Positions 2 to 18,800 of a DNA stretch of 33,551 nt are shown here, one piece after another. The position numbers and the translations under genes are program-made. Under the pieces are notes generated by a model. It was not told the origin of the DNA and did not search any database. It was given only the letters and a program-made list of their open reading frames with translations. The stretch's first letter is position 1, and every line of letters starts with the position of its first letter. This DNA is from a virus, in IMG/VR virus record IMGVR_UViG_3300030380_005493, positions 1 through 33,551 of that record; one strand, 5' to 3'.

Positions 2-175
2 ATTGCAGAATTAGAAAGAATAGAGGCTGAACGTATTGCTGCAGAAGAAGCAGAAGCTGCAAGACTAGAAGCAGAAAGACTTGAACAAGAACTGCTTACA
101 CTAAAGGAGCAAGATGAAGTCAGCACTATCGAGCCTGTTATTGACCCTGTGCCTGTTAACGTCCACAACGACTAG
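2..175 (+). CDS. C-terminal end of a coiled-coil protein (partial)
   Basis: An open frame runs in from the left edge and stops with TAG at 173-175. The visible 57 residues are almost pure charged helix (I-A-E-L-E-R-I-E-A-E-R type heptads, rich in Ala, Glu, Arg and Leu), followed by a short Pro/Val tail ending in NVHND. This is a coiled coil and nothing more specific can be said. The next gene starts inside it at 114, a 62-bp overlap, which suggests both are translated from one message. The N-terminus and the function lie outside the window. The frame is supported by coding-like composition and by the clean stop. Confidence 0.6.
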   Translation: MAELERIEAERIAAEEAEAARLEAERLEQELLTLKEQDEVSTIEPVIDPVPVNVHND

Positions 176-1727
176 TACAGAAATAAACACAGGAAATATT
201 CTTAACAACTCCACTTTTGGAACTGGCAGCACTACAACTACAACTGGTTGGTCAACAGACGGTGATGACGGTATTCATACTCACGGTGCCTGGAATGGAT
301 TTCCATATGAAACAGGCATGGACAGCAGTGGTGGTGTATTAGCATTCGAAGGACATGAAGAAGACAATGTATACCAGGATGTAGATTTAGTTGATGATGG
401 TCACTTAACACAATCACAAATGAATCAAGGTTTTACCTCAACCATGGGAGCAGACGTATGGTTTTGGAACAACATAGATAACACACTTACTCTTAAACAA
501 ACTATTACAGGAGCTGATGGTTCAGTATCTACGCAAGTTAGAGAAATAACTGGCACCAGTGGTTCAACTGGCAATAAGTTTACTAATTATACAAACGTAC
601 ACATCGAGGGTTCAAATACACAAACAGATATTACAATTAGAGCAGAGTTATTTAATGAAACTTCAGGTACAGCTTATGACAATTCTCATCGTGGACCAGA
701 TGTAGATAACGTTACATTAGATGTAACATATCAAAATGTAGCTCCTATTAACGAAGATGCACAAGAAGCTATAGATGACATAGAAGACAACATACCTGAC
801 ATACCTGACGATATATTTGATGAACCAGATTTTATATTTGAGGAAGAATATTTTGTTTGGGAAGAAGATTTTTATTTTGATGATAGTTTTGCAATAGAAG
901 ACGAATTCTCTGTTTACGAAATGCCAGAAGAATTTGAGATTATAGAAATGCCAGAAGAATTTGAAGAGATGGTAATGGAGATGCCTGAAGAGATGACAAT
1001 GGAAATGCCAGCTGACATGGAAGATGCTTTTGCTGTAGTGTCAGATGATTTACCAGAAATGGAGATGACAGAAGAGATGGAAGAAGAATTTGTAGAAGAT
1101 GAGATAATAGAAATGGAGGAAGAACCTACAGAAATAGCCACAAACGAGGAAAGTGTTGACATGGAAGCTGAAACAGATGAGAGTGTAACAGAAATGCCTA
1201 GTGAAGAGGCAGAAGAAATGGAGGTGGTTGAAAATGAAAAACCCCAAAAGAATGAAGAATCTTCTGAAAGTTCTGAAGAAGCATTGGAAGAAGAGTCGGG
1301 ATCGGAAGAAAGCGTTTCAGAGACTGTTGAGGATGAGAAAGAATCAATGGCGGAAACAGATGTTGCTGACGGAGGAGAAATTAGAACCAAAAATATTGAG
1401 GTCAGTAAGACTATAAAAATTAAAAATGTGGATATTGGCGAGATAAAAGTTCAAGTCAATCCAAAAGATATATTTAAGGAGGTCGTAAGTTTAGACTCCT
1501 ACGAAGGTAAGGATTTCTACAAAGACAACGGCCTCCAATACGAAGTTAACGACAGCTTTTTTGAGCAAGCTAGCATGATTCAATACAACAAAGAAATATA
1601 CAGTAACATAACGTTGATAGCGTACGTGCAAACTGACCCTGTAGAGATACAAAGAAGGCAGTTAGAGGATTTGGCTATACAAAAAGCAGGCATTATGATA
1701 GAACTTAAGCTCTTGAGAGGAGAATAA
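114..1727 (+). CDS. Secreted protein: carbohydrate-binding-like domain, acidic EMPEE repeat region, C-terminal domain
   Basis: 537 aa. Residues 1-22 look like a signal peptide (basic start, Leu-rich core, small residues). Residues about 24-206 are beta-rich. They open with NILNNSTFGTG followed by GW and close with GPDVDNVTLDVTY, the usual first and last strands of galactose-binding-like/CBM jelly rolls; sugar binding is inferred. Residues about 211-415 are strongly acidic with repeated EMPEE/EMTEE units (268-330), a likely disordered or calcium-binding spacer. Residues about 420-537 form a mixed, less acidic C-terminal domain that I do not recognise. The start is set by AAAGGAG five bases before the ATG. 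It is followed one base later by the next gene. It could be a lysis, entry or surface-attached factor; the family is unknown to me. Confidence 0.8.
   Translation: MKSALSSLLLTLCLLTSTTTSTEINTGNILNNSTFGTGSTTTTTGWSTDGDDGIHTHGAWNGFPYETGMDSSGGVLAFEGHEEDNVYQDVDLVDDGHLTQSQMNQGFTSTMGADVWFWNNIDNTLTLKQTITGADGSVSTQVREITGTSGSTGNKFTNYTNVHIEGSNTQTDITIRAELFNETSGTAYDNSHRGPDVDNVTLDVTYQNVAPINEDAQEAIDDIEDNIPDIPDDIFDEPDFIFEEEYFVWEEDFYFDDSFAIEDEFSVYEMPEEFEIIEMPEEFEEMVMEMPEEMTMEMPADMEDAFAVVSDDLPEMEMTEEMEEEFVEDEIIEMEEEPTEIATNEESVDMEAETDESVTEMPSEEAEEMEVVENEKPQKNEESSESSEEALEEESGSEESVSETVEDEKESMAETDVADGGEIRTKNIEVSKTIKIKNVDIGEIKVQVNPKDIFKEVVSLDSYEGKDFYKDNGLQYEVNDSFFEQASMIQYNKEIYSNITLIAYVQTDPVEIQRRQLEDLAIQKAGIMIELKLLRGE
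918..1200 (+). repeat. EMPEE-type acidic repeat tract
   Basis: Within the 537-aa gene, a 20-base unit coding for EMPEEF occurs exactly at 918-937 and 945-964 (27-bp period). Degenerate copies (EMPEEM, EMPADM, EMEMTEEM, EMPSEE) follow to about 1200. Low complexity here also creates long open frames on the other strand, which are artefacts. Confidence 0.75.
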
Positions 1728-4189: not shown

Positions 4190-5282
4190 CTGCAAATTCT
4201 TCATCAAATGTTTCACCAAATAATGATGCTTGTTTTTTTGGTTCTAAGAAATCTATATCTCCCAAAGGCTTAGCTGATTTATGTAAATACAGCTTTGCTT
4301 CAGAATTTTTTAATCCATTTCTAATTAAATTATCTACTTCTACAGCATCTGCAAAATCCTCTGGGTAATTTTTTTGCATGTTTTTCCATTGATCATTGTG
4401 ATGATAAGGACAACCTATGCACGATGATTTGCCAGGCATAGGATGTTTTTTTATATCTTTATACCAATTAAGACAATCCATACGAGACATTTTCATTTCT
4501 ATCAAAGGCCAACGTGACGTTAACCACGGCAATCTAGCATTTTTCATACGCATTGCTTCGTCTGTAGATATACCTATCCATTGTTCTACAATCATGTCTT
4601 TAGGCACTCTATGTTTAGGTTTTACACCAAGTAACTCTCTCATTTTCTTTTGTATAGGGATAACTTTATAATCGTGCGTACACTGACGATAAAGCATCCC
4701 TACACGTCCACCTTCACGTGCAGCAAACAACGGTGGGTTTGGTACACGTCCAGCAAAGGATTTATCCGCTTCTTTAGATCCTGGTTCTGGATTCGCTGCT
4801 TTGATAAGGTCTTCTCTGATGTTTCCTCGCTCCACAGTAATTATAGGACAAATCGTTATTGCTTTTTTTAAATATTCTACATGCTCATACACAAATTTAG
4901 GTTCCCACCCAGTGTCAGCAAATATCATATAATCTGGTTTATGTTTTGTTAATCCTTCTTGCGCCATGAGCGCCAAACAGGATGACTGAACCCCTGCACC
5001 GAGTGATAGAATCCGCAAGGTCGGCTCTCTTTGTTCGCCTTGTCCTTCTGTGCTGTCGTAATCTGCTCTGTTACCGTTTTTAAGTAAGTTAGTTGTTTTA
5101 AAATATTTAGGCTCAACCGTAGCTGCAACTGCTGCCATGTTGTTAAGCCTTTTTTGATCAACTTTCTTAGACATTTGCTCAAGAACTTTTCTCCTTTCGT
5201 ACTCCATTTGTTCTGAATTAATGGCAAAATTGCTTTTTTTAATCGCAGCTCTAACCTTACCCTGTTCTCTGTATTTACTCAT
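4161..5282 (-). CDS. PP-loop ATPase, PAPS-reductase/DndC-like
   Basis: 373 aa. After a charged N-terminal extension (1-88), the adenine-nucleotide alpha-hydrolase core begins with the PP-loop SLGAGVQSS (93-101), then FADTGWEP (121-128). Cys201 (RQCTHDYK), Cys270 and the pair Cys288/Cys291 (SSCIGCPYHH) could hold an Fe-S cluster, as in DndC/CysH-type proteins. The extreme C-terminus is ECEGICGV, reminiscent of the redox-active Cys tail of CysH. Family members reduce PAPS or adenylate a substrate for sulfur insertion into tRNA or DNA; which one applies here is not shown. The start overlaps the polymerase stop as ATGA. Company with sufE favours sulfur transfer. Confidence 0.82.
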   Translation of the reverse strand: MSKYREQGKVRAAIKKSNFAINSEQMEYERRKVLEQMSKKVDQKRLNNMAAVAATVEPKYFKTTNLLKNGNRADYDSTEGQGEQREPTLRILSLGAGVQSSCLALMAQEGLTKHKPDYMIFADTGWEPKFVYEHVEYLKKAITICPIITVERGNIREDLIKAANPEPGSKEADKSFAGRVPNPPLFAAREGGRVGMLYRQCTHDYKVIPIQKKMRELLGVKPKHRVPKDMIVEQWIGISTDEAMRMKNARLPWLTSRWPLIEMKMSRMDCLNWYKDIKKHPMPGKSSCIGCPYHHNDQWKNMQKNYPEDFADAVEVDNLIRNGLKNSEAKLYLHKSAKPLGDIDFLEPKKQASLFGETFDEEFADECEGICGV

Positions 5283-7144
5283 TTAGCATCGCCCCAATTA
5301 TCTTTTATTTTGTAATCAACATTAGATGGCACTTTTAATTTCATAGACGTTTCCATTATATTTTTAATTTTCACAGCCATTCTATCATCTTTGACACTGC
5401 AGTTCAATTCATCATGTACCTGTATTAGAGGAATTATCTTTAACTCCTCATAAATATCTACCATGGCTTTTTTAGTTTGATCAGCTGCTGTGCCCTGTAT
5501 GAGTCTATTTAAAGCTTTATATGTGCCAGCTCTTTTGACATTGCCACCATATTCTGCTTGTGCCTGTTTTAATGGCATGGCTTTATGAAACACACCAGGA
5601 TCGTACCACGCAGGTTCATACAAATCAAAACGACATTTTCTGCCTAGCTCTGTTCTTATTGTACCAACTTGGTTTGCCTTATTCATAACAGCTTCTAGCA
5701 TGCCTTGCATAAAAGGAACTTTATCTCTGAACTCCTGCATTAAATCTTTTGCCTCTTTAGGGGCTATATCTAGGTCTACAGCAAGCTTTTTATACCCCAT
5801 GCCGTACATCACACCAAGACCTATCGTTTTAGCTAATCTACGATCAATTCCAGCCATTTCTGCTGTCTGTTTGTGAAAGTCTAATCCCTTTACAAATGCT
5901 TGTTGCACTTCTTCTGCTCCTTCGTTACCATTTCGTATTGCAAAATGTGTAAGTATTCTAGGTTCTTGTTGTGAATAATCTGCAGATAACCAATACTCTC
6001 CTTGTTCTGGTATAAATAATTTACGAAGTTCAGAGCCATACTCATTTCTTATTGGCATTTGCTGTAAGTTTGGTGCGTACATAGAAAATCTACCAGTAAC
6101 AGTGCCACCACTATCCCCTCTAATTTGATTTATGTGTGCGTGTAATCTACCATTATGTATGTGTTTAGATATGCCATCAATAAATGTTCCTTGCAGTTTA
6201 TTTAATACGCGTGCTTTTGTTATCATTCTTGGTAATTCGTGTGCGTGTGTATCTAAAAAACTTTGTGTAAAACTAGGAGCACCAAGTGTTGTACGAGGAT
6301 ATTCTAAATTAACACTATCGAATGCCTGGGCCACAGACCGAGCTGCAAAGATCTGTACGTCATGTCCTACAATATCTTTTATTCTTTTAAGGTAAGTCTT
6401 TTCTTTGTTTCTAAGTTTTGTTCTAAGTCCTTGAGCTCTATCCATGTCAACTCTAACACCACGCTTTGTCATGTTGTAAATAACTCTTATCAATCTACAT
6501 TCTACATCATATACAGGCTCTAACGCATCTTTCTTAATCTCTACTAATAACTTTTCATGTAATCTAAACGTTAACAATGCATCTGCTTCAGCATATTCTC
6601 CTACAAATTCAGCAGGCAACTTATACATCTCTGCTTTAGGATCTATTCCTAACTCATCTGCTTTTGCTTTTAATGTTTTTTCATCTTTGTATTCGCCAAG
6701 GTACTCACTAACAATGCTATTTAATGTGTAAGAAAATCTATTTTCATTTAATAATGCAGCAGCTATCATTGTGTCATGTATGTAACCCTTTACTTCTATG
6801 CCTAATACACTTAACCAACCAATGTCATACTGTGCGTTGTGAAAAACTTTTTGTATTGATTCATCTTCACAAACATCTTTTATATATTTTAAAACTTGTT
6901 TTTTATCCATGTTACCACCACCATCATGTGAAATTGGATAATAGGCAGTAAAATCACCACTGGATATTGCAATTCCAATTACTTTACCAACTTTTCGAGG
7001 CCAACCAGGACCTAATGCTTTTAATTCTGTGTCACAAGTTTCTAAATCTATGGCTACAACTTTTTTACCCTTCATAGATCTATACTCTGTAGGGTGTAAC
7101 CATTCTGCTTTTACTTCATTTTTATTAAATAGATCCACTGTCAC
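5279..7144 (-). CDS. polA: Family A DNA polymerase with 3'-5' exonuclease
   Basis: 621 aa, the phage replicative polymerase. Exonuclease motifs: VAIDLETCD (Asp33, Glu35), VFHNAQYDIGW (Asp107), YAEAD (Tyr184, Asp188). Polymerase motifs: A, SADYSQQEPRI (Asp389); B, RRLAKTIGLGVMYG (435-448); C, QVHDEL (His577, Asp578). There is no 5'-nuclease domain, as usual in phages. The residue equivalent to E. coli Phe762 is Leu443. The start is GTG at 7144, supported by GGGGAG six bases upstream, and lies 20 bp inside the preceding gene. The downstream PP-loop gene overlaps by ATGA. All catalytic residues are intact. Confidence 0.96.
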   Translation of the reverse strand: MTVDLFNKNEVKAEWLHPTEYRSMKGKKVVAIDLETCDTELKALGPGWPRKVGKVIGIAISSGDFTAYYPISHDGGGNMDKKQVLKYIKDVCEDESIQKVFHNAQYDIGWLSVLGIEVKGYIHDTMIAAALLNENRFSYTLNSIVSEYLGEYKDEKTLKAKADELGIDPKAEMYKLPAEFVGEYAEADALLTFRLHEKLLVEIKKDALEPVYDVECRLIRVIYNMTKRGVRVDMDRAQGLRTKLRNKEKTYLKRIKDIVGHDVQIFAARSVAQAFDSVNLEYPRTTLGAPSFTQSFLDTHAHELPRMITKARVLNKLQGTFIDGISKHIHNGRLHAHINQIRGDSGGTVTGRFSMYAPNLQQMPIRNEYGSELRKLFIPEQGEYWLSADYSQQEPRILTHFAIRNGNEGAEEVQQAFVKGLDFHKQTAEMAGIDRRLAKTIGLGVMYGMGYKKLAVDLDIAPKEAKDLMQEFRDKVPFMQGMLEAVMNKANQVGTIRTELGRKCRFDLYEPAWYDPGVFHKAMPLKQAQAEYGGNVKRAGTYKALNRLIQGTAADQTKKAMVDIYEELKIIPLIQVHDELNCSVKDDRMAVKIKNIMETSMKLKVPSNVDYKIKDNWGDAK

Positions 7145-7418
7145 CGATCTCCCCTGCTATTGCTGCATAGCCTGCTATGTCAACAAAATTATCTATGTTA
7201 AATTTTTTACCTTGATTGTTTCTAGATATCTTTAACAATACCATCATCAAAGCTACGTCTTCAGCAGTTATATTAGCCATAGGTTTTAGTTTATTATCTA
7301 AAAATGTATTCCAATATTCTGCTATTTCTGCATGGTTTTTGTAGGCATCTCCATGTGATACATTTCTATCATTAGAGACAATTTCTTGCGCCTTTATCAA
7401 GATTTCTTCTTTAGTCAT
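7125..7418 (-). CDS. DUF6378-like phage protein
   Basis: 97 aa. The pattern VSHGDAYKNHAEIAEYW, then ITAEDVALMMVLLKISR and NFVDIAGYAAIAGE matches the small all-helical phage/prophage family named DUF6378 as I remember it. Its function is not established; the conserved His, Asp and Glu residues recall nucleotide pyrophosphohydrolase helices, but that is only a suggestion. It sits between the helicase and polymerase genes, overlaps the helicase stop as ATGA and the polymerase start by 20 bp, so its product is made together with the replication proteins. A house-cleaning or nucleotide-pool role would fit this position but is inference. Confidence 0.72.
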   Translation of the reverse strand: MTKEEILIKAQEIVSNDRNVSHGDAYKNHAEIAEYWNTFLDNKLKPMANITAEDVALMMVLLKISRNNQGKKFNIDNFVDIAGYAAIAGEIGDSGSI

Positions 7419-8914
7419 AATATAAATCCTCTTTCTTTTTGTGGATTAATTATATGCAGGGATTGTTTAGCACGCGTCACCCCTACATAAAAAACTCGAT
7501 TAGTGTCATCAGAATCAACCTCCATTTCATCTTGATTAGCGCGTGATAAATCTGTTACTAAAATTACGTTATCGCACTCACCACCTTTTGATTTGTGTAT
7601 TGTGCTTAAATTTATTCTTGGTTTTGTATCTAATTGACCAGTTACATCTAATGCTTGTAGATAATATCTATCCTCGTCACCCATAACTTCTTTAAAAGTT
7701 TCGTCCCAACTTCTATCTACATTTAATAACCCATGATGCATGCTCAACTCTTCTACATTATATTTTTGATTCTCGTCTAATGTCTTACCCCCTTTATATC
7801 CTCTTTCTACACCAACACCAACTTTTAAATTAGAATATATAGCCATAACTTCTTCGTGTGTTATTAAATCAGAATCTAATAATTTTTTCCATGCGTTCAC
7901 TGCTTTCAATAAATTTTCACTGACAGGAAACTTATCGTCTATGGTGTAAGCTAATCCTAAATTTCTTAAATCTACCTGCAGCTCATCTAACATGTAACCA
8001 CACGTTGCAAGTGCTAACCAGTTGCCTTCGTCCATATCAACATATCCTGCATGCTCATGATATTGTACAAATCCTTTTTCTTCTCTAGCTTTCCATTCTT
8101 TAGGTCTTCTGTTTCTTATTCTTTTTACTATATCTCCTGCCATGTTGTGCACCAGCTGCGGGCATCTGTAGGATTGTTTTAACACAGTTACATTACCCTC
8201 CATGTTAATTAATTCGTCTACATCAGCACCCATCCATCTAAATATTGCTTGATCATCGTCACCACTAATGTAAACTCTTTCGCTGTTTTCCCATATCTTT
8301 CTACACATTCTCCACTGTAATTTAGATAAATCTTGTGCTTCATCCACAATTACAACATCTAATTTAGGTGTATGTCCAAAATTAACAAATTGTATCAACA
8401 TGTCATTAAAATCAAATTTACCTTTTTCTTGTTTGTATTCTTCGTAAGATTGATAAACTAGCAACAACTCTCTCCAAGAATAATCAAAATAATTATTGTT
8501 GTAAAAATCTTGTAGTTCTAAATCTTGCATTTTAGATTTATTTATATCGTTCATAAATTTGTTGTCAGTTAAAACTGCACCATAATCTGCATTGTAACTT
8601 GTTGTTAAATCTATTCCATAATTCTTACTAAACTCTTTCATGTCTGCTTTTGACATGACTTCTGATTTTGACATGCCAGTGTTTCTTTTGCCAAAGGCAT
8701 GTAAAGTAGAGAAGTAAGGAAAGTCATCATCTGTTAAATTAAATTTTATTTTAGCTCTGTCTATTGCCTCTTGTGCAGCCTTTTTTGTAAAACTAACAAA
8801 AGCTATTCTGTCAGGAGGCGTTCCATTTTTTAGTTCCCGGTCCACAATCCGCAGTAGGTTTTCAGTTTTACCTGTTCCTGGAGGTCCTAGTATTATCTCA
8901 ATCTTATTGTGCAT
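7415..8914 (-). CDS. UvrD/Rep-like SF1 DNA helicase
   Basis: 499 aa. Superfamily 1A motifs in order: Walker A LGPPGTGKTEN (9-19), VSFTKKAAQEA (Ia), VVIVDEAQDLSKLQW (II), ISGDDDQAIFRWMGA (III), LKQSYRCP (IV), INLSTIHKSKGGE (V) and RVFYVGVTRAK (VI). It should move 3'-5' on ssDNA using ATP and may be the fork or repair helicase of this phage, since no DnaB or T7 gp4-like helicase is seen here. The start was set at ATG 8914 because AAGGA precedes it and Walker A then falls at the expected distance; a longer frame from 9004 would overlap the nuclease gene deeply. Confidence 0.93.
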   Translation of the reverse strand: MHNKIEIILGPPGTGKTENLLRIVDRELKNGTPPDRIAFVSFTKKAAQEAIDRAKIKFNLTDDDFPYFSTLHAFGKRNTGMSKSEVMSKADMKEFSKNYGIDLTTSYNADYGAVLTDNKFMNDINKSKMQDLELQDFYNNNYFDYSWRELLLVYQSYEEYKQEKGKFDFNDMLIQFVNFGHTPKLDVVIVDEAQDLSKLQWRMCRKIWENSERVYISGDDDQAIFRWMGADVDELINMEGNVTVLKQSYRCPQLVHNMAGDIVKRIRNRRPKEWKAREEKGFVQYHEHAGYVDMDEGNWLALATCGYMLDELQVDLRNLGLAYTIDDKFPVSENLLKAVNAWKKLLDSDLITHEEVMAIYSNLKVGVGVERGYKGGKTLDENQKYNVEELSMHHGLLNVDRSWDETFKEVMGDEDRYYLQALDVTGQLDTKPRINLSTIHKSKGGECDNVILVTDLSRANQDEMEVDSDDTNRVFYVGVTRAKQSLHIINPQKERGFIL

Positions 8915-9198
8915 TTGCCGTCCTTTCCCACAAATATAAATTTCATTTTTAATTTTCTTTGTTCTTGTGTAAGTTGTCTGTGTATGCGAGTTCCAGGTTT
9001 CCATGTCTTGCGATAACTTTCACTCTTCACATCATATATCTCAACCCTGCCTTGTTCATCTATTGCTATAAGATCTGCAGGACCTAAACCAAATAAATTT
9101 TTAAACACAAAAAATCCTTTTTCTATTAGATACAGAATAGCTATCTGCTCGCTTTTCATTCCTTTCTTTATTTTTGGTAATTTAAAACGGCGTTGCAT
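8893..9198 (-). CDS. Small PD-(D/E)XK nuclease-like protein
   Basis: 101 aa. GLGPADLIAID (Asp42) followed by VEIYDVKS (Asp56-x-Lys58) gives the PD...(D/E)xK core, with an upstream helix carrying Glu17 and a later LTQEQRKLK helix; this is typical of Holliday-junction-resolvase-like or VRR-like small endonucleases. It probably cuts branched or damaged phage DNA. ATG 9198 is chosen because AGGA stands seven bases upstream; ATGs at 9264, 9216 and 9159 have poorer sites. It overlaps the primase end by 17 bp and the helicase start by 22 bp, so nuclease and helicase are probably made in step. Confidence 0.75.
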   Translation of the reverse strand: MQRRFKLPKIKKGMKSEQIAILYLIEKGFFVFKNLFGLGPADLIAIDEQGRVEIYDVKSESYRKTWKPGTRIHRQLTQEQRKLKMKFIFVGKDGKCTIRLR

Positions 9199-10699
9199 TT
9201 TGTTTCCTAACTTCATAATCAGAATCTTGTTCGTCAAAGGTAGGCACACCCCATGTGTTAACACCTTTACCTTTTAGTTTCCAAAATTTATGCTCACCTT
9301 TTATTTTACGCAACTCTGCAATTATTTGTCCTGTATTGCTGTAATGTGTAAATTTATTTCTAATTAAATAAGCATGTAAATCTTGTAGTCTAAAAAATAT
9401 TCTACCATTTTCTGTATATGGTTTTCGTAGTAACAAATCTTCTTTTATTAATCCCTGTGACCGGCCAGTACAAAACTCCTGGAGGTGAGCTAAAAACTGA
9501 CCGGAAACAGAACCATCGTTGGACACTGGTATCCTAAGAGCTGTTTGCATCTTAGCATTTACCAATTGTTGCCAATCCGATGATTTCATTAGAGGCGGCA
9601 TCATAGTAAGAACTTCCATGCACCTCTTCTGAAACTTTGTTTGTATTTGTAATTCTTCTGTAGTTAATTGTATTTTTAAATCTTGTTCTCCTTCATCTGT
9701 AGGTATTTCTAAAAACCATATAGGCGGCTCTGTTTCTAATTTAGATAAAGATCCTAATTGTTGAGATACATTTTCTGCACCAACTCCATGTTTTCTAGTC
9801 TTGCATAAATTTACATTACAAAAAGAATTTATAGGCTGATCCTTACATTTGTATTGATAGCCTTTTTTGTTTAATTGACCTACAACAGTAGCAACCTCTT
9901 TATGGTCTAAAGGGGGTTGCATGTATTTTTGATTGTACTCTTCTAATAATCTTTCCCAATTGTCTGGATCAAATTTCTTTGTATATACACCAATGTTAAA
10001 CAAACCATTGTTGCGTGTACCAGGAGGAAAACCTTGCCCACATAGAGCCTGAAGACAAGGGGGACCGTCTTTTATGACTTCTTCTTCATTACTTCTTCCT
10101 ATGGTATCTATGTCGTCTACAACGTTTCTATCATAAACTTCATAAAACTCTTCTAGAGTAGCTGCTGTTCCGTTCATTTTCAATGCATAACGAACTGACT
10201 TGTTGCCATTGTAATATGGCAAATTTAAAAAATTACCTAGATCTCCTTTTTCAAGAGATATGCTAGATTGTTTTGGAAATATTTCTGATTGTGAATGACC
10301 TATTAATGCAGCCATTTGTGTTAACTTGTTTCTAATTAATTTAGATGCAATTGGTTTTTTTAAAAATATAAATAAGTGTGCACCACCACTTTTAGATTTA
10401 CAATATACTAAAGGTAAATTTAATTTTTTTATTTTCTTGAAAAGTAAAGTGTGATCCAAAGGATAATCATCAATGTCAATACATCCCCACTTAGAAGTAT
10501 TATCAGCCCTAATAGGAATAATCCCAAGAGACGGACCCTCGCCCTCCAAATGTTTTTTCCAAAGTTCATCAACAACCTCCTGTCTTACAATATACGATTT
10601 ACCTTGCTGCTTACCGTCAGCACGCGAACCGTTAGGTTGGTGCTGACCATAAGCTACGTCTAAACCTTCAAAAATAGATTTAAATTTCTCAACTTCCAC
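9182..10699 (-). CDS. TOTE-type archaeo-eukaryotic primase
   Basis: 505 aa. The N-terminal half is an archaeo-eukaryotic primase (AEP) domain: GCIDIDDYP (72-80, metal-binding Asp75/77/78), YCKSKSGGAHLFIF (99-112, His108), and SEIFPKQ followed by GNFLNLPYY. A PriCT-like helical region follows (about 215-280), with FPPGTRNNGLF and then a Cys cluster (C285, C294, C299; YQYKCKD, CNVNLCKTRKHGVG), as in TOTE conflict-system primases. The C-terminal third is unassigned. It should make primers for the polymerase and may itself polymerise. The start is GTG at 10699 with TGGAGG upstream. A primase of this class in place of a TOPRIM primase-helicase is notable. Confidence 0.85.
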   Translation of the reverse strand: MEVEKFKSIFEGLDVAYGQHQPNGSRADGKQQGKSYIVRQEVVDELWKKHLEGEGPSLGIIPIRADNTSKWGCIDIDDYPLDHTLLFKKIKKLNLPLVYCKSKSGGAHLFIFLKKPIASKLIRNKLTQMAALIGHSQSEIFPKQSSISLEKGDLGNFLNLPYYNGNKSVRYALKMNGTAATLEEFYEVYDRNVVDDIDTIGRSNEEEVIKDGPPCLQALCGQGFPPGTRNNGLFNIGVYTKKFDPDNWERLLEEYNQKYMQPPLDHKEVATVVGQLNKKGYQYKCKDQPINSFCNVNLCKTRKHGVGAENVSQQLGSLSKLETEPPIWFLEIPTDEGEQDLKIQLTTEELQIQTKFQKRCMEVLTMMPPLMKSSDWQQLVNAKMQTALRIPVSNDGSVSGQFLAHLQEFCTGRSQGLIKEDLLLRKPYTENGRIFFRLQDLHAYLIRNKFTHYSNTGQIIAELRKIKGEHKFWKLKGKGVNTWGVPTFDEQDSDYEVRKQNATPF

Positions 10700-10724
10700 G
10701 AAACCTCCAGATGTGGAAAACTAC

Positions 10725-11516
10725 CTAAAAAGGTGCGTCTTCTGTTTTTTGATTGGTTTCGTTATTTATTAGTTTTGGTTCTTCAGGTTTTGCGTCAACA
10801 GCACCACTAGATGCAGATTGAGCAAAAGCCTTACTATCTTGATAGATGGAAGGATCAGTAACTTGATTGCCTTTGTCTATTGCAAAACCAAACCAACTAC
10901 CTCTGTCGTTAGATTCACTTACAGTAGATAATTTGTAAGTAAAAGCATAGGTAGGAGGAGTAAACATCCCAGATGGACCCTTAAGTTTTTGTGATAACAT
11001 TAAGCTGTTCCATCGTCTGCTTTTTTTAAGCTGACTAGAACTCATGCTAATCACAGCATTTTGGTAACCATCACCGGTTAGTATTAACACATAATGATAT
11101 GCTGTTTGTACAATGTGATTGCCATTAGGCAATACTTGTTTGTTAGTCATAGGATCACGTGTGCACTGACCTAGAACGCCACTGTCTGCATCGTGAGATG
11201 CTATGAACCCACCACCTTGCTCTCTAGGTTTCCACTCTACATATTTGAGTGAATAGAAAACAGGAATGACTTCTACATCTGCAAAGACTTCTTGCGTTAC
11301 TGTGTTAAAAAGGTTTCCTGCTTTTGCAGAATCTATATATTCTGGTTTGCTAGGATTTACCTGCGGGCTAGATGTTTGCAGGATGCTTATGTAGGGTATT
11401 GCTGTATCCCTAGATATATCCAGCTTGTCAAAGCCACTCATAGACTGTGCATCATTTGCCATGACTGCAAGGTCTAACTTTTTTTCTTTAGTTACATTAG
11501 TATTTTGTTTATTCAT
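10725..11516 (-). CDS. Putative ssDNA-binding protein
   Basis: 263 aa. The body is beta-rich with aromatic residues, including FADVEVIPVFYSLKYVEW and FTPPTYAFTYKLSTV. It ends in a disordered Pro/Glu/Asn stretch and an acidic-aromatic tip, KTEDAPF, the feature that SSB and T7 gp2.5-type proteins use to recruit partner enzymes. This composition, the place between primase and other replication genes, and the size suggest an ssDNA-binding protein; I do not recognise a named family. ATG 11516 has AAGG six bases upstream and leaves a seven-base gap to the preceding gene; a longer frame from 11567 would run into that gene. Confidence 0.6.
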   Translation of the reverse strand: MNKQNTNVTKEKKLDLAVMANDAQSMSGFDKLDISRDTAIPYISILQTSSPQVNPSKPEYIDSAKAGNLFNTVTQEVFADVEVIPVFYSLKYVEWKPREQGGGFIASHDADSGVLGQCTRDPMTNKQVLPNGNHIVQTAYHYVLILTGDGYQNAVISMSSSQLKKSRRWNSLMLSQKLKGPSGMFTPPTYAFTYKLSTVSESNDRGSWFGFAIDKGNQVTDPSIYQDSKAFAQSASSGAVDAKPEEPKLINNETNQKTEDAPF

Positions 11517-11523
11517 ATTTACC

Positions 11524-12075
11524 TTATTCAGATTTAATTGTTGTTTTTTGACCAACATAAGCGCCAAGTAGTTCCATAGGAAGATCTACCCCTTTCTCAT
11601 ATTGCTCGCGTACGAATGCGCGGAGGGTGGAAGGTTCGACCCACTCGCGTTGCGCAGTATCATATCCTTTCTCATTGAGATCAGATACAAGACTACTAGC
11701 TTTCTCATCTTCATTCCTTCCAAAGCTACAAGTGATTTGGTTCTTTACTAAATCGCCAAACCCATTGTTTCTTAGCCAAGTATGTGCAAGAGGTCTATTT
11801 TCTACTTTAATAGAAGCTCTAAAATACTCGGAAACTGATAACTTACGACCATCCGCAAGTTTTAATTCTGATAAACCAACTTCAGAAAATAAAGTAGGTA
11901 ATACTTCTTCTGATAACCTGGTTATATATTCTTCTTTCTTTTTTAATTTGTGTTTAAGATCTGCAATTTCTTTTTCTGTTTCAGATATATCTGTAGCAAC
12001 TGCACCAATCTTTTCTAATCTATTTTCTGGAAGATCTTTTACGTCCTCCAACATTTGTTTTAATAACTCACTCAT
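11524..12075 (-). CDS. Conserved phage protein with N-terminal coiled coil
   Basis: 183 aa. Residues about 28-56 form a charged coiled coil (EKEIADLKHKLKKKEEYITR). The C-terminal part has a compact conserved-looking block, WVEPSTLRAFVREQ followed by MELLGAYVGQKTTIK, which I have seen as a recurrent ending in phage early proteins of unknown role, some annotated as nuclease-inhibitor-like. It lies second in the replication operon, directly before the putative SSB, so an accessory role in replication or recombination is plausible. The start has GAGG six bases upstream. GC is locally higher around 11600-11650, where the conserved block is encoded. Confidence 0.7.
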   Translation of the reverse strand: MSELLKQMLEDVKDLPENRLEKIGAVATDISETEKEIADLKHKLKKKEEYITRLSEEVLPTLFSEVGLSELKLADGRKLSVSEYFRASIKVENRPLAHTWLRNNGFGDLVKNQITCSFGRNEDEKASSLVSDLNEKGYDTAQREWVEPSTLRAFVREQYEKGVDLPMELLGAYVGQKTTIKSE

Positions 12076-12076
12076 T

Positions 12077-12379
12077 TTACCTCAAGTCTATTTCTAAATC
12101 ATAATATTGTTTTTCGTTGCGGTCCCATTTAAGCACTTTAAATCTACCGTTGTTAACTTGTGCAGCTATTGCTCCACATAGTGCAATGATAGCAGGATCA
12201 CCAATTAAAAGCAAGTAGTCGTTATCATTAAATGTGGATAACTTTTTCTTTAACTCAAAAGTCAAAGGTCCAGAGGACATTATCATTTGTTTTCTGTCTG
12301 GTAGCATGACTTCTAAATCGCCAAACTTTTCTGCAGATCGGACATTGTAGTCCATCAACTGTGGTATGTAAACTGTCAT
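12077..12379 (-). CDS. Conserved early phage protein, first gene of replication operon
   Basis: 100 aa. It has an N-terminal beta part (SAEKFGDLEVMLPD, then a stretch ending in SSGPLTFELK) and a strand-helix-strand block, YLLLIGDPAIIALCGAIAAQ and FKVLKWDRNEKQYYDLEIDL. The second block resembles short proteins found at the head of replication operons in marine phages; no function is known to me. It is the first gene after the strong - strand promoter, with a predicted 14-base leader and no good ribosome site, so it may be translated nearly leaderless. It ends two bases before the next ATG. Confidence 0.68.
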   Translation of the reverse strand: MTVYIPQLMDYNVRSAEKFGDLEVMLPDRKQMIMSSGPLTFELKKKLSTFNDNDYLLLIGDPAIIALCGAIAAQVNNGRFKVLKWDRNEKQYYDLEIDLR

Positions 12380-12391
12380 ATTTTTTATTTC

Positions 12392-12419
12392 TTGATTATA
12401 TTATATCATATGATATAAT
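12392..12419 (+). promoter_or_regulatory. Sigma70-like promoter of the SNF2 helicase gene
   Basis: On the + strand: -35 TTGATT (12392-12397), 16-bp spacer, extended -10 TGATATAAT (hexamer 12414-12419). Predicted start is near 12426, about 19 bases before the helicase ATG at 12445. It overlaps the opposing promoter almost completely, each -10 box lying in the other's spacer, so both cannot be occupied at once. Confidence 0.7.
12400..12419. promoter_or_regulatory. Perfect 20-bp palindrome, candidate operator
   Basis: ATTATATCAT followed by its exact reverse complement ATGATATAAT. It contains the -10 boxes of both divergent promoters. It may be a dimeric repressor site, or simply the geometric result of two overlapping TATAAT boxes; the perfect centre (TATCATATGATA) goes beyond what the two boxes need. 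Confidence 0.6.
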
Positions 12420-12428
12420 GCATTTCAA
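12400..12428 (-). promoter_or_regulatory. Sigma70-like promoter of the replication operon
   Basis: On the - strand: -35 TTGAAA (12428-12423), 17-bp spacer, extended -10 TGATATAAT (hexamer TATAAT 12405-12400). Five of six bases match at -35 and six of six at -10. Predicted start of transcription is near 12393, about 14 bases before the ATG at 12379. It is the only promoter-like site upstream of the 2572-12379 operon. Confidence 0.75.
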
Positions 12429-12444
12429 GAATAAAGAAAGAAAT

Positions 12445-13881
12445 ATGTATAAATTTAAGACGAAGCCTTTTGAGCATCAGAAAGATGCATTAAAAAGATG
12501 TTGGAATAAAAAAGCATTTGCTATTTTTGCAGAGATGGGCACAGGAAAAACTAAAATAGCGTTAGATAATGCTTGCATTTTATACAACAAAGGTAGAATA
12601 GATAGATTATTAGTAGTTGCTCCAAAGGGTACATATATGAACTGGGTCGACTCAGAGATACCAGTTCATGTACCCGATTATATAGAAAAAGAAGTATTAG
12701 CATGGAAGCCTAACCTAACAGAAAAATATAAATTACAATTAAAACAAATAAGAGACGTAAATAATTTTAAATTTAAAATATTTATTATGAACGTAGAAGC
12801 ATTGTCTACAAAAAAAGGTGTAGATGCAGCAAGATTGTTTTTAATTGGTAAGTCAATGATGATAATTGACGAGAGCACTACCATAAAAAATCCACAAGCA
12901 AAAAGAACAAAAAATATATTAGGTCTTGGCAAGGAAGCAAAGTACAAAAGAATATTAACAGGTTCTCCTGTAACACAATCTCCTATGGATTTGTGGTCAC
13001 AAATGGATTTTCTTGACCCCGAGATCCTAGGGCAGTCTAGCTTTTATGCATTTAGAACTAGATATGCAGTTATGATAACAGCTAACGCAGCTGGGGGCAC
13101 ACACAAATACCAAAAGATAGTTAAGTTTAGGAATCTAAAACATTTAGGTGATACGGTTGCACCACACTCTTATAGAATATTAAAAAAAGATTGCTTAGAT
13201 TTACCAGAAAAGTCTTTTATAAAAAGAGAGATAGAACTTAGCGAAGAACAACAAAAAGCGTACGCAGATATGAAAACAAGTGCAACAACTGTGCTGCAAG
13301 GTCAATCTGCTACTGCACTTAATGTGTTGACACAATTAATTAAACTACATCAAATAACTTGTGGGCACATGAAAACAGATCAAGGTGAAATAATAAATTT
13401 AAAAAATTCTAGATTAGACGAGCTAATGCAAATATTAGGCGAAACTTCTGGCAAAGCTATAATATGGGCAAATTATGTGCATGACATATTAAGAATAGAA
13501 AAAGCTATAAAAGAAGAATACGGACCTACTTCTTATTGTACTTATTATGGTGCAACTAAGGCAGAAGACAGACAACGTTGCATTTATGATTTTCAAAATA
13601 AAATGAATGATTGCAGATTTTTCATAGGTAACACGCAAACAGGTGGCTATGGTATTACACTAACAGCTGCCAGCACAGTTATATATTATTCTAATAACTA
13701 TGATTTAGAAAAAAGAATACAGTCAGAAGACAGGGCACACCGTATAGGGCAAAAGAATCCTGTTTTATATATTGATTTAGTTGCTAAAAAAACTGTAGAC
13801 GAAAAAATAATACAGTCACTTAGAAATAAAGTTAATATAGCAAAAGAAATAAGTGGAGAAGAATTGTCTAAATGGATTTAG
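12445..13881 (+). CDS. SNF2-like SF2 helicase/translocase
   Basis: 478 aa. First RecA-like lobe: Walker A AEMGTGKTKIAL, then LLVVAPKGTYMNW (Ia), MIIDESTTIKN (motif II as DES instead of DEAH), RILTGSPVTQSPMDLW (III). Second lobe: AIIWANYVHDI (IV), GNTQTGGYGITLTAASTVI (V) and SEDRAHRIGQKNPV (VI). This is a compact SNF2 translocase without extra domains, expected to move on dsDNA and help replication or recombination, or displace proteins. It is the only gene on this strand between two - strand operons. ATG 12445 is chosen because ATGs at 12361 and 12418 lie upstream of the predicted transcript start. Its last four bases overlap the convergent exonuclease gene. Confidence 0.92.
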   Translation: MYKFKTKPFEHQKDALKRCWNKKAFAIFAEMGTGKTKIALDNACILYNKGRIDRLLVVAPKGTYMNWVDSEIPVHVPDYIEKEVLAWKPNLTEKYKLQLKQIRDVNNFKFKIFIMNVEALSTKKGVDAARLFLIGKSMMIIDESTTIKNPQAKRTKNILGLGKEAKYKRILTGSPVTQSPMDLWSQMDFLDPEILGQSSFYAFRTRYAVMITANAAGGTHKYQKIVKFRNLKHLGDTVAPHSYRILKKDCLDLPEKSFIKREIELSEEQQKAYADMKTSATTVLQGQSATALNVLTQLIKLHQITCGHMKTDQGEIINLKNSRLDELMQILGETSGKAIIWANYVHDILRIEKAIKEEYGPTSYCTYYGATKAEDRQRCIYDFQNKMNDCRFFIGNTQTGGYGITLTAASTVIYYSNNYDLEKRIQSEDRAHRIGQKNPVLYIDLVAKKTVDEKIIQSLRNKVNIAKEISGEELSKWI

Positions 13882-14546
13882 AGCATGCTTTGATTATACA
13901 AATCAAGTTTTTTCATAAATGCATCACCGGCTCTTACAAAATTTTCTCCTTCTAATTCAAATCTTTGGAAAGTAAAATCTCTAGAACACATCAACACAAC
14001 ACCTTGGTCTATATCAGTATCAAATAATTTATTATGAGCATGGGCATATGCTGCTAATTGCATTAAGTAATCCTGCACCCATTCTCTTTTCTTTGGTTTA
14101 TTGCTTTGTTTAAAATCAATAATAGCAGGTCTGCCTTTATACAACCCAACCATGTCAGTGGTACCAGCGTATTTACCAGGATAATACAAATGAACTTCTG
14201 AACCCCACACTTCGTCAATATCTTTAAGGCCTTCGTCAATAATTACCTGGGCCATTTTCTCAGCTTGCACGCCCACATCTGTAAGATCCTTGTAAGAATG
14301 CTTGTTCACATAATGTTCTATGTATAGGTGGAGCGCCGTTCCAATTTTGGCTGCATCAGATATAATTTTCTCAGCTTGTTTTTCTCCTACTCGTCTACGC
14401 CATTGATCTAATTTACTCTTATCTTTAGTCTTGGATAATATTGTGGTAACTGAAGGTAACGATTCACCATCAGGCGTTAAGTACAACCTTTTAGGTCCAT
14501 CTTTTCTTTTTAAATTTTTGTAGTCGTATTTCTGTACGATTTGCAC
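13878..14546 (-). CDS. PD-(D/E)XK exonuclease (RecB/MGME1-like)
   Basis: 222 aa. Motifs of RecB/Cas4-like ssDNA exonucleases: GTALHLYIEH (69-78, His73), WGSEVHLYY (Glu117), YAGTTDMVG (Asp131), IIDFKQS (Asp144, Lys146) and QLAAYAHAH (Gln163). It resembles mitochondrial-type MGME1/phage exonucleases, which trim ssDNA ends during recombination or break down DNA. It is the last gene of the long late operon although it belongs functionally to replication. The only plausible start is GTG at 14546: a TAA lies just upstream in frame and no Met occurs until residue 98. No clear ribosome site. Its 3' end overlaps the SNF2 gene by four bases, tail to tail. Confidence 0.88.
   Translation of the reverse strand: MQIVQKYDYKNLKRKDGPKRLYLTPDGESLPSVTTILSKTKDKSKLDQWRRRVGEKQAEKIISDAAKIGTALHLYIEHYVNKHSYKDLTDVGVQAEKMAQVIIDEGLKDIDEVWGSEVHLYYPGKYAGTTDMVGLYKGRPAIIDFKQSNKPKKREWVQDYLMQLAAYAHAHNKLFDTDIDQGVVLMCSRDFTFQRFELEGENFVRAGDAFMKKLDLYNQSML
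13888..13913 (+). terminator. Intrinsic terminator after the SNF2 helicase
   Basis: CTTTGATT (13888-13895) pairs with AATCAAG (13901-13907) with one bulged T around an ATACA loop, followed by six Ts at 13908-13913. It starts seven bases after the helicase stop and lies inside the 3' end of the convergent exonuclease gene. It would confine the + strand transcript to the single helicase gene. Confidence 0.6.
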
Positions 14547-14562
14547 TACAGCTTATAACATA

Positions 14563-15072
14563 TTAGTCACGTTTTGGAAACGGAATAATTTTTGCCCCTC
14601 TCATGGATTCTTGTTTTCTTTGTCTAGCCACAGCTATCATATATCTTTCATGGTCAGATAACTGACGAAGTTGCATATTTTTTCTAGCCATCTTACCAAT
14701 AGCATCTTGTATCATAGAGTCCATAAATCCTCTGCTCCAAGACCCTACGCCTCCGGTTTCTCTAAACCAATCATCCATAACTTTTCTTTCTTTTGGATTT
14801 AATCTAAAATGATTTGCAATAGCAGTAAATGTTTTAGGATTTTTTACTCTGTGTCTTACGTAATTCATAAAAGTTCCAGGGTGCGGATTCATATATCTAG
14901 CATAACCTTCGTCCAAAGATTGTGCACTAGCCAGTCTAGATGATTCTGCAAACTCAGGATTTTTCATTACCCTTACAGATCTTTCGTTAGGAAATTTTTG
15001 TGCAACTTCTAATGCCCTTTTCATTGCATCTTTTCCTTTCATTTTTTTAAGCAGTGATAGTATACCGTACAT
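14563..15072 (-). CDS. Hypothetical basic protein in late operon
   Basis: 169 aa, rich in Arg, Met and Lys, mostly predicted helical, with a central block GYARYMNPHPGTFMNYVRHR followed by HFRLNPKERKVMDDWFRETGG. The block resembles small basic virion or accessory proteins but I do not recognise a family. It sits between a small membrane protein gene and the exonuclease gene with gaps of 17 and 16 bp, looser than most junctions here. The GGGGAAAG just before the ATG is a modest ribosome site. A virion or packaging-related role is possible from its place at the end of the structural operon, but unproven. Confidence 0.65.
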   Translation of the reverse strand: MYGILSLLKKMKGKDAMKRALEVAQKFPNERSVRVMKNPEFAESSRLASAQSLDEGYARYMNPHPGTFMNYVRHRVKNPKTFTAIANHFRLNPKERKVMDDWFRETGGVGSWSRGFMDSMIQDAIGKMARKNMQLRQLSDHERYMIAVARQRKQESMRGAKIIPFPKRD

Positions 15073-15089
15073 CTTTCCCCAAGCGGCCC

Positions 15090-15302
15090 CTATTTATTCA
15101 TTTTGTCAAGTTTCTTATTTATATTCTTGACTTCTGATTCTATCACTGCAACCCTAGAATCCATTTTTGATAACATTATTATTGCTGTTTCCATACGATC
15201 CATGTCTTTTTCCATTGCATTAATTCTTTGCGAGGTCATACCCCAAGTAGAACCCATTGCAATTAATATTCCTGCAACCCAAATTAAATCTTTAGTTGTC
15301 AT
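15090..15302 (-). CDS. Small membrane coiled-coil protein (holin/spanin-like layout)
   Basis: 70 aa. Residues about 6-22 (LIWVAGILIAMGSTWGM) make one membrane segment, and residues about 26-70 form a coiled coil with regular hydrophobic spacing (INAMEKDMDRMETAI, then VIESEVKNINKKLDKM). This layout, one helix plus short periplasmic or cytoplasmic coiled coil, is common for phage lysis proteins and small tail-linked membrane proteins. It follows the virion genes directly, starting in an ATGA overlap with the 170-aa gene. A lysis role is suggested only by layout. The related-looking 162-aa protein at 1729-2217 has the same architecture on a larger scale. Confidence 0.65.
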   Translation of the reverse strand: MTTKDLIWVAGILIAMGSTWGMTSQRINAMEKDMDRMETAIIMLSKMDSRVAVIESEVKNINKKLDKMNK

Positions 15303-15811
15303 ACTTCCATATCAAAATAATTAAATGGAGGCATTCTGCCTTCGTTCTCTTGTTGTTCTCTCATCTTTTCTTTCATCATAAAGTCTAGCATGAAATCATA
15401 TAAATAATCTTTTTGTTCATCACTTAATTGTTTCTTTATCGTTTCTTTCATTTGAGGTGTATCAACTATGCCGCCTTCTTCAAATTCAAATTTATATCCA
15501 CCATAAAAATTATCAAGACCTCTATCCGCGCCAAACGTTAATATACCTGGGCCACTCGGTAATTCATATCCATAAAATTCTCCTGTTATGCCGTCCTCTG
15601 GGGTTATTTTTTCAGGTATAAAAGGTTCTACCTTATTGTAACCTTCTTTAATTCCCGTAATAATAGGGCTATCCATAATACCAGAAGGTATTGCTTCTTG
15701 AATCATGCTTCCAAGTATATCATTATTTATAATTCTATTTGTTTCTTGTCTGGGTTCTTTTGATATTCTAGGATTAGATTCTTTAACCATTCTTCTCATC
15801 ATATTACTCAT
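15299..15811 (-). CDS. Virion-associated hypothetical protein
   Basis: 170 aa. It has a Met/Arg-rich N-terminus, a Gly/Tyr/Pro-rich middle (ELPSGPGILTFGADRG), the motif FEEGGIVDTPQMKE near residues 109-122, and an acidic Met-rich helical end (LYDFMLDFMMKEKMREQQ). The EEGGIV segment is one of several related Gly-Gly motifs in the virion proteins of this window. It begins in an ATGA overlap with the 1129-aa gene and ends in one with the membrane protein gene, so it is made with the putative ejection proteins. Family not recognised; likely a small internal or tail-associated virion component. Confidence 0.6.
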   Translation of the reverse strand: MSNMMRRMVKESNPRISKEPRQETNRIINNDILGSMIQEAIPSGIMDSPIITGIKEGYNKVEPFIPEKITPEDGITGEFYGYELPSGPGILTFGADRGLDNFYGGYKFEFEEGGIVDTPQMKETIKKQLSDEQKDYLYDFMLDFMMKEKMREQQENEGRMPPFNYFDMEV

Positions 15812-18800
15812 GTCAAACTACCTATGCCTTTGGTAAAAGGATTGTCATTCATACCACTTTGCATTTTAACATATTTACCTTGATTATTCATAACTGGATT
15901 TAATTCCATTAGCCCACCTCCTGCAGCGTATTGCGTATTACCGTATTGAGCAGCTAAAGCTGCATCTGTATCACCTGTGTATAGTGCTTGTGCAGCACCA
16001 GAATTCATTGTTGGATTTTGCATAATTGATGACCCAACTCTTGATGTATCGTATCCCTGTGCAAGTGGAGCCTCTGTTGATGTATTGCCAGCTGCAGGAG
16101 GTGGTGGGTTAGAAAGTCTTCTCATTATACTATTGTTGCCTGGTATATTACTTATATCTTTTACAGCTTCGCTAGGGTTTGAAAGATAATTTAATCCAGG
16201 TTGTATTATGTTTTCTGTTATAGCGTCTTTTATTCTTTCAGTTGTAGATCCTGCGGTAACTGCAGCCTGCTGTCTCATGTTTTGTTTTCTTTGCATTGTT
16301 TCCATTTCTACAAGATCTGCATCAAACTGCATCCATTCTTCTGGATACATACGAACAATTCTAAACATGTTTTGTAATCTAACTGTTTCTGGTAAATTTG
16401 TGTTTAATGCATTTTTCATAACTCTCATAGAAACAGGATTTGTTAAAACTTTACCACCATAGTTGACTAACCAAGTTGCTCCTAACATACTCCAAGCTCC
16501 AATGCCCAAGGACCCAGCTGCAAAACCGGCTGCTCCTGCAGCAGCTCTTGATCCAAAAGCTTTTGTAGGCATTACAGATCTAATAGCATTTGAGAATCCT
16601 CCCATAATAGATCTACGCATCATGAACTTTGCAGTATTAGGTATACCGTCAGCAAACAATCTTTCTAATATATCAGTTAATTCTTCTAGTTCTTTTATGG
16701 TAGGCAATTGTCTTGATTCTGCTTTTAATAATCCTTCTGGAACTTCTTCTCCTAGTATATCTTTTATGCCTTTGTTTACTCCTGTTTCATATAACTCATC
16801 GTCAAACTCTTTAAATATTCCTGTTTTAGGATCAAATATTTTTAATTTAGTAACTTTTGGCCCAGGCAATGCTTCACTCATTAATGATTTTAGCGCACTA
16901 CCTTCTTGTCCAATACCTATTGCACCTCTAAAAGCATCTGCATCAAATTTCATTATGCCTTGATCTTCTGATATTGCTTTGTGAAAAGCATTTCTTATGT
17001 AAGTTCCTACACCGTTGTGATAACCTCTATCGCCAACAATTCTTCTTATGGCTGCTAGTTCTGGGTAAGCATTTCTAGGTTTACTCTTTGCTGCATTAGT
17101 TACAACTTCGAATAATCCTTGTCCAGCACGCGTTGTGCTTTCATCAATGTTTATGCTAAACCCTCTCTTACTTACATTTGCAATAGATTGACCAACATCT
17201 GTTCCGTACAACAACATGCCTTTGCTTACAAAATTATCATAAGCTTGAAACGCTTTTGCAACTTCTGGATAACCCATTTGAGCAACAGATCCTATGTCTG
17301 CTTCCCACGCTTTAAATAATCTTGTTATATCATCTGCGTAAGTTGTTTTAGCTAAGGTTGCATCTTCTAATGGTTTTAATAAATCATCCATTTGTTCACG
17401 TATACCTTTCATTTGCTGCACACTACGCATAGTGTGTGTTGCATTTCCTGGTAACGGTTTAATTATTTGCTCTTCTAAAAATTTTATAAGTTTGCTTGAT
17501 ACTTGTTGTGGTATTAAATTTGCATTAACATCGTCAGCATATGCACTTACTTTAGGATCAATTTGTAATTTTTCTCTATATTCTTTTAGTATTTGTTTTG
17601 CATTAGACACAAGATTATAATCAGAAAAACCTTTACCCATGCCCTCTGCTGCTTTTGTAAAATCATCTTCTAGTTTTCTAGCATAAGCTCTAAACCCTCT
17701 CATGTTTGCAGAAGCTAGTTTTGTCCACTCAATGCCCATATCAAAAGCATTTGCGTAAGGTGCAAACGCACCAATCATTTTATCTTTTAATAAATTTACA
17801 TAAAAATCACTTTGTTCTCCTAAAGATTTACTTATGCCAATACCAAATAAAGGCGTAGGAGCCATTGCCCCTTTAACTGCTCTACCTATTCTGCCACCTG
17901 CCATGGTTCTAGACATCATTGTGCCTGGTATTTCTGCAGCTTCAGGAAACCATTCTTTACCGTTATGTTTTACACTGCCAGTTGGACCTAACCAATTAAA
18001 AGCTCTAGAGTTAGTAAGTCTAGTTAAAAATTCTCCTACTTTTGGTATTCCAAGTGGATTAGCAAAAACTAATTTTTCTTTAGGACCATCTTTAGGCATC
18101 CATCTTTTTAAAATTTCTTGTTCAGCATCTAACAATTCTTTGCTGGTGTATACACCAGGAACTTTTTTATCTTTAAACATTCTAAACGGAACACTTCCAA
18201 CACCTTGTCTTAATGCATAGTACAAAGGCCTAGCGCCAAAGAAAGCTGAAGTTATAGCTGCATCCCATTTGAATGCGTTTACAGCATTTCCTACTCTTGT
18301 TTTTTGATCAGGTCTATTTATACCTTCAGGTCCAAAGTCCATGCTGTCAGGTATTACTTCTGCTAACATAGCATCTGCAATAGATGCTCTACCTGGATCA
18401 TCTTTCATCCATTGTTTTGCTTGCCCTGCACGGCTCATAATGTCTAACATTACTTCGTATCCATAATCTGCTGCTGCTGTTCCTGTTGCTCCCCCTATTA
18501 CAACTCCTGCAGTTCTACTTAACCAGTTACCTTTAGAATATTTACCTGAAGTATTTTTAGGATTAGTAAAAAAGTTTTTTCTCATTAATTGTTCACCTTT
18601 TACAGATCCATAGATACCTCCACCTAAATACATACCTGTTTCTACTACAGGATATGGGTTAGGATTGTTTGTCAGTAAACCCATACCATCACGCATTGCC
18701 AATGTTTCAGGGTCAACAGTTATAAAGTCATTCATTTGTAAATTAGATGCAGCCAATAAATCGTTAGTGCCTTGAACCGCTAAATCTAAGAATTTTTTAT

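Follow-up and report, generated by a model that had tools for sequence, protein, structure and literature searches.

The window, the whole 33,551-nucleotide stretch of DNA that was analysed (IMG/VR virus record IMGVR_UViG_3300030380_005493), carries the gene for an SNF2-type helicase on the + strand within a block of - strand genes. The intergenic region between this gene and the PF23992 gene, from which a set of replication genes runs in the opposite direction, measures 65 bp and holds two promoters that face each other.

5279..12075, - strand: replication genes behind the PF23992 gene (PF23984, PF23977, an AEP-type primase, a UvrD-like helicase and a family A DNA polymerase)
12077..12379, - strand: first gene of the divergent operon, 100 aa, PF23992 (Pam3_gp32)
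12392..12419, + strand: predicted promoter toward the SNF2 helicase; -35 TTGATT (12392-12397), 16-bp spacer, TGA (12411-12413), -10 TATAAT (12414-12419), predicted start at about 12426-12427
12400..12428, - strand: predicted promoter toward the replication operon; -35 TTGAAA (12428-12423), 17-bp spacer, TGA (12408-12406), -10 TATAAT (12405-12400), predicted start at about 12393
12400..12419: perfect 20-bp palindrome ATTATATCATATGATATAAT, made up of both -10 boxes with their TG extensions
12445..13881, + strand: SNF2-type helicase, 478 aa (PF00176, Helicase_C; phrog_62)
13878..14546, - strand: PD-(D/E)XK exonuclease, converging on the helicase gene with a 4-base overlap (13878-13881)

The identities of the helicase and the DNA polymerase, respectively, are 54% and 50% to 023Pt_psg01, 51% and 44% to HTVC027P, 50% and 47% to DSL-LC04, and 47% and 49% to HTVC023P. 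Because the closest helicase and polymerase are found in those phages, the window is a relative of the HTVC023P-type pelagiphages, and we infer SAR11 as the host. Elsewhere in the window (114-1727, + strand), a long, acidic and repetitive protein of 537 aa with repeated EMPEE-like stretches is encoded.

Direct reading of the site bears out the preliminary description: two near-consensus sigma70 promoters with extended -10 boxes are opposed and interlocked with spacers of 16 and 17 bp, and a perfect 20-bp palindrome at 12400-12419 contains both TATAAT boxes. The window has a single copy of this palindrome, and with up to three mismatches allowed it matches elsewhere only as a shifted self-overlap. 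Hexamers near consensus at a spacing of 16-18 bp are present on both strands, and the two -10 boxes are separated by 8 bp, each lying inside the spacer of the opposite promoter. The predicted scores of the two promoters are 8.6 and 11.1 on an E. coli-type matrix, not one of the presumed SAR11 host. Promoter-like sites are no more frequent in positions 9000-16000 (26) than in shuffled sequence (mean 28.9); within this list the pair comprises the top site (11/12 matches) and one of three sites with 10/12 matches, and only these two carry a TG before the -10 box. In the 33.5 kb, the strongest interlocked pair is this site (8.6), followed by one within a gene (7.0). The interlocked pair is not due to chance: when the 65-bp intergenic region was shuffled 3000 times, a pair with both scores at least equal to those of the window was never obtained. 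The 20-bp palindrome alone appeared in 16 of 5000 intergenic shuffles, with a mean of 0.13 per shuffle of the whole window, and is therefore weak evidence by itself.

Relatives of the helicase were collected as two sets of 80 loci (the best 80 of 343 and the best 80 of 465), and the 160 loci including the window, without L221 (which has only 31 bases upstream), were grouped into 90 clusters at 90% DNA identity. A pair was counted where interlocked promoters were reciprocal and both scored at least 6.5. Conservation of the pair was found in 75 of the 82 clusters with a divergent neighbour, as against 10 of 1640 shuffled regions; the clusters are related to each other, so that the counts are not independent events, and L024 is included as divergent although its divergent ORF has only 52 aa. 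The pair is kept in 27/33 clusters of the window group and 48/49 of a sister group. In contrast, none of the eight clusters with a co-directional upstream gene (L223 assigned by eye from the sequence) has the pair, the weaker of the two promoters scoring 2.9-5.8 in them. Six of the seven failing divergent clusters (L005, L008, L015, L023, L028 and L041), which belong to the window-type group, have degenerate boxes in the same place, and the promoters of the seventh, L196, lie apart. In L196, L198 and L199 the helicase-side promoter is kept, the opposite -35 box is lost and a separate possible promoter lies further left, and in L011, L035, L038, L039, L044, L047, L049, L055, L061-L065 and L074 a co-directional gene stands directly before the helicase and the promoter block is absent.

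The individual boxes are conserved along with the arrangement. The helicase-side promoter of the relatives is mostly TTGA(C/T)T-17-TATAAT and the replication-side promoter often TTGAC(A/T)-17-TATAAT, while L147, L149 and L151 contain TTGACA-17-TGnTATAAT on both strands, so that two promoters of perfect consensus face each other. All 27 window-type clusters share an 8-bp gap between the -10 boxes, whose sequences hardly vary; the sister group has TTGAC on both strands in nearly all clusters and a -10 gap of 5-13 bp (12 bp in 24/48). As the gap varies between the groups, it is the overlap that is kept and not one fixed site. The promoter block is also retained where the - side flank differs (L024, L040, L056, L057, L059, L060, L069 and L081). 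A TG extension accompanies 20 of 20 poor -10 boxes (third base not T, or TAT[CG]TT) as against 0 of 52 TATATT boxes, in a grouping that was picked after the data had been seen and with a TG that itself adds to the score used in choosing boxes; compensation of a poor -10 box by TG would be the behaviour expected of promoters. Judged by this conservation as promoters, both look real.

The distribution of the pair was followed by scans from the HTVC027P and HTVC023P helicases, which yielded 60 clusters from 156 usable loci. Counting only rows long enough for the tree, the pair is present in 2/26 rows of the HTVC027P type (L299 and L256) and in 0/32 of the HTVC023P type. Conservation across all HTVC023P-type phages was accordingly rejected, the pair being absent from the HTVC023P group and nearly absent from the HTVC027P group, which mostly retains TTGACT-17-TATATA toward the helicase. 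The best junction scores in the cultured phages are 5.6 (HTVC027P), 5.7 (HTVC023P) and 7.5 (psg01). A quick tree with a midpoint root and long branches, which does not settle the deeper order, places the window group, the sister group, psg01, DSL-LC04 and the HTVC027P group separate from HTVC023P. The HTVC023P-type junctions (L307-L365, upstream of the helicase) carry another conserved element, AATCAATATATTATT...TTTGAT...TGCAAA...AATAAT, and ahead of the divergent gene an AGGAGG-type site; a sigma70-like pair is absent. In pattern scans, TTGAn4-6ATTATAn8TATAATn4-6TCAA lay at the helicase gene start in 35 of 57 contigs (34 by SNF2 and 1 by the divergent neighbour only), and TTGACAATATAn10-14TATATTGTCAA lay there in 118 of 119 contigs among the matches listed. 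In L430, about 517 bp separate the gap-12 motif from the helicase start, which it does not adjoin. General occurrence in bacteria was rejected, as the double-consensus pattern was found in only two genome contigs (uncultured Ruminococcus and Herbivorax), of which one lacked a helicase match and the other had a distant one (24% identity).

The sister-group record G007 has a second interlocked pair, with a score of 9.5, which is flanked by the gene for the terminase small subunit (terS), named from the annotated gene order in psg01 and HTVC027P and the look of the protein, and by a small ORF.

L511 19605-19638 (= G007 59405-59438): second interlocked pair, between the terS-like gene and the small ORF

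A third pattern, taken from this pair, matched at least 120 viral contigs; among the matches listed, 115 lie by terS, 1 by SNF2 and 4 by neither, two of the latter being short contigs. With transcripts assumed to begin 7 nt beyond the -10 box, the matches listed have a predicted terS leader of 0-1 nt in 103/120 and a predicted leader of -2 to 3 nt opposite in 99/120, and the start codons lie 36-40 bp apart (about 38 bp) in 105/120. At the sister-group helicase junction, the predicted replication-side leader is 1-2 nt in 30 of 33 clusters with a gap of 11-13 bp, and the predicted helicase leader is 15-26 nt. Both genes at the terS junction thus look leaderless on these predictions. Since start codons coincide with predicted transcript starts on both sides of the terS junction and on the replication side in the sister group, two leaderless genes could share about 38 bp of regulatory DNA. 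Unlike at the helicase junction, the 12-bp centre of the terS pair, AGGTAACTATCC, has a per-column conservation of 77-100% among 66 distinct sequences and may therefore hold an extra site. The same promoter design is thus re-used independently at the terminase junction. Tentatively, and with rather more doubt than confidence, we suggest that this lineage of abundant ocean phages may have standardised a minimal two-way gene start, in which a pair of near-perfect host promoters is completely overlaid within 34-38 bp, at two unrelated divergent junctions, where exclusion alone could fix the ratio of leaderless genes with no regulator.

The preferred reading of the site, with a probability of about 0.68, is a compact two-way host-sigma70 promoter pair that would co-express the helicase and the replication operon, polymerase occupancy being exclusive in each event. 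Of its components, the elements, the interlocked geometry and the conservation as promoters and not as a palindrome are direct readings. Two complete sigma70 promoters (-35, about 17 bp, -10, often extended) would stand face to face, the + promoter transcribing the SNF2-type helicase and the - promoter the primase/helicase/PolA operon. Host sigma70 polymerase could bind in either orientation, never in both at once, and would probably fire both promoters in the same infection phase. Because one polymerase would be held at a time, the two initiation rates would be coupled, their sum being limited and their ratio set by the box sequences, and with many phage genomes per cell the outcome would be co-expression at a set ratio and not alternative states. 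The preliminary description had likewise assumed mutual exclusion; binding of one polymerase at a time stands, on geometry and established knowledge, but expression of helicase and operon as alternatives is not supported.

Such a pair resembles the bacterial bidirectional promoters described by Warman, Grainger and colleagues, which, in the available parts of these reports, share a -10 element and have starts 7-25 bp apart, 18 bp being the commonest distance (PMC10268837, PMC12825309). In both, symmetry allows two polymerase orientations, mutually exclusive binding and divergent transcripts. However, the phage pairs have two separate -10 boxes 8-13 bp apart (5 bp in one cluster), both -35 boxes near consensus, and predicted starts 33 bp apart in the window and 33-38 bp apart in relatives (30 bp in one cluster), which is outside the range of 7-25 bp given in the accessible text (PMC10268837).

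It is also conceivable, although we place it well short of even odds, that both promoters work with occupancy too low for interference, so that the overlap would reflect compaction only and have no regulatory meaning. The shortness of the intergenic region in the window and the close spacing of the terS start codons agree with this, and genome compaction likely lies behind the origin of the overlap. In addition, polymerases did not compete at the basal activity of five E. coli bidirectional promoters but only when one direction was raised, according to the part of that study available (PMC12825309). On the other hand, many clusters have boxes on both strands that match or nearly match the consensus, which predicts high occupancy and makes interference likely, unlike in the weak E. 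coli cases; from these boxes we infer that polymerases would compete at this site. The overlap furthermore persists with longer leaders, as in L195, where the helicase leader is about 44 nt, and in L024, where the small divergent ORF lies further off.

Control of both promoters by a dimeric phage or host protein bound to the palindrome, as the preliminary description had suggested for a repressor, is an unlikely alternative when the relatives are considered. The window does contain a perfect 20-bp palindrome, and the sister group has symmetric arms of 11 bp, TTGACAATATA/TATATTGTCAA, but the symmetry resides in the -35 and -10 boxes themselves. The palindrome is perfect in only 4 of 27 window-type clusters, which disappoints the expectation that it would be conserved, and symmetry at the four pairs in its centre has frequencies of 0.26-0.78 as against 0.33-0.71 expected from independent sides. 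Of the sister group, 24 gap-12 clusters have a mostly asymmetric centre, and the gap-8 clusters (n = 10, related) show symmetry above the independent expectation. Moreover, the outer -35 to -35 span is not constant (37-38 vs 33-34 bp). With the symmetry not conserved in relatives and the centre no better than chance, the palindromic operator was rejected; the palindrome is best regarded as a by-product that arises because two identical -10 boxes face each other, and the retention of the boxes without the palindrome or the central symmetry indicates that selection acts on two promoters. In E. coli bioO/BirA, overlapping face-to-face promoters lie on a symmetric sequence that binds a repressor; the phage pair shares the face-to-face overlap on symmetric sequence with bioO, but its symmetry is not conserved outside the boxes.

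A switch between alternative states, in which the helicase and the replication operon would be expressed one instead of the other, at different times or in different cells, is more improbable still. The geometry would make polymerase binding mutually exclusive, but steric exclusion alone has no memory, and the predicted strengths are similar, and equal in many relatives, so that the proposed switch without a repressor is not supported. According to the accessible text of PMC4207663, citing Bendtsen et al., an overlapping-promoter switch requires unequal promoter activity and a regulator that acts differently on each promoter. No feedback element was seen, and neither HTH_3 nor integrase was matched in 13 records, most of them fragments; the earlier remark that no repressor gene is visible holds for the families tested, and a lysogeny switch was rejected on the same searches. 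In the pLS20 Pc/Pr system, opposed core promoter elements likewise overlap and polymerase uses one at a time, but a strong and a weak promoter are combined with the regulator Rco and DNA looping, control involving a tetramer and several sites, whereas the two promoters of the phage pair have similar predicted strengths (available part of PMC4207663). Lambda PR/PRM are also divergent phage promoters close together (same source, in part), but they are adjacent and repressor-controlled and serve lysogeny. Finally, chance or an AT-rich replication-origin element that merely resembles promoters, for which the AT-rich sequence adjoining the replication genes might speak, is highly improbable given the boxes conserved one by one with 17-bp spacers and TG compensation, the absence of the pair where the upstream gene is co-directional, and the shuffles.

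The arrangement was not found described in the literature searched on pelagiphages and on bidirectional, overlapping or leaderless promoters, a search that most subscription papers lay outside, and nothing relevant came up on the biotin operon; the word "promoter" occurs 0 times in the accessible part of PMC9599517, and the main text of PMC12753301 gives no temporal class for either of the two HTVC027P genes. These phages supply natural pairs of two consensus promoters in full overlap with graded variants, with which it becomes directly testable whether polymerase exclusion alone sets gene ratios. At the other end of the helicase gene, none of the eight terminator-like sites listed in 9000-16000 lies at the junction with the exonuclease gene, so that late leftward transcription may read antisense through the helicase gene into the promoter pair.
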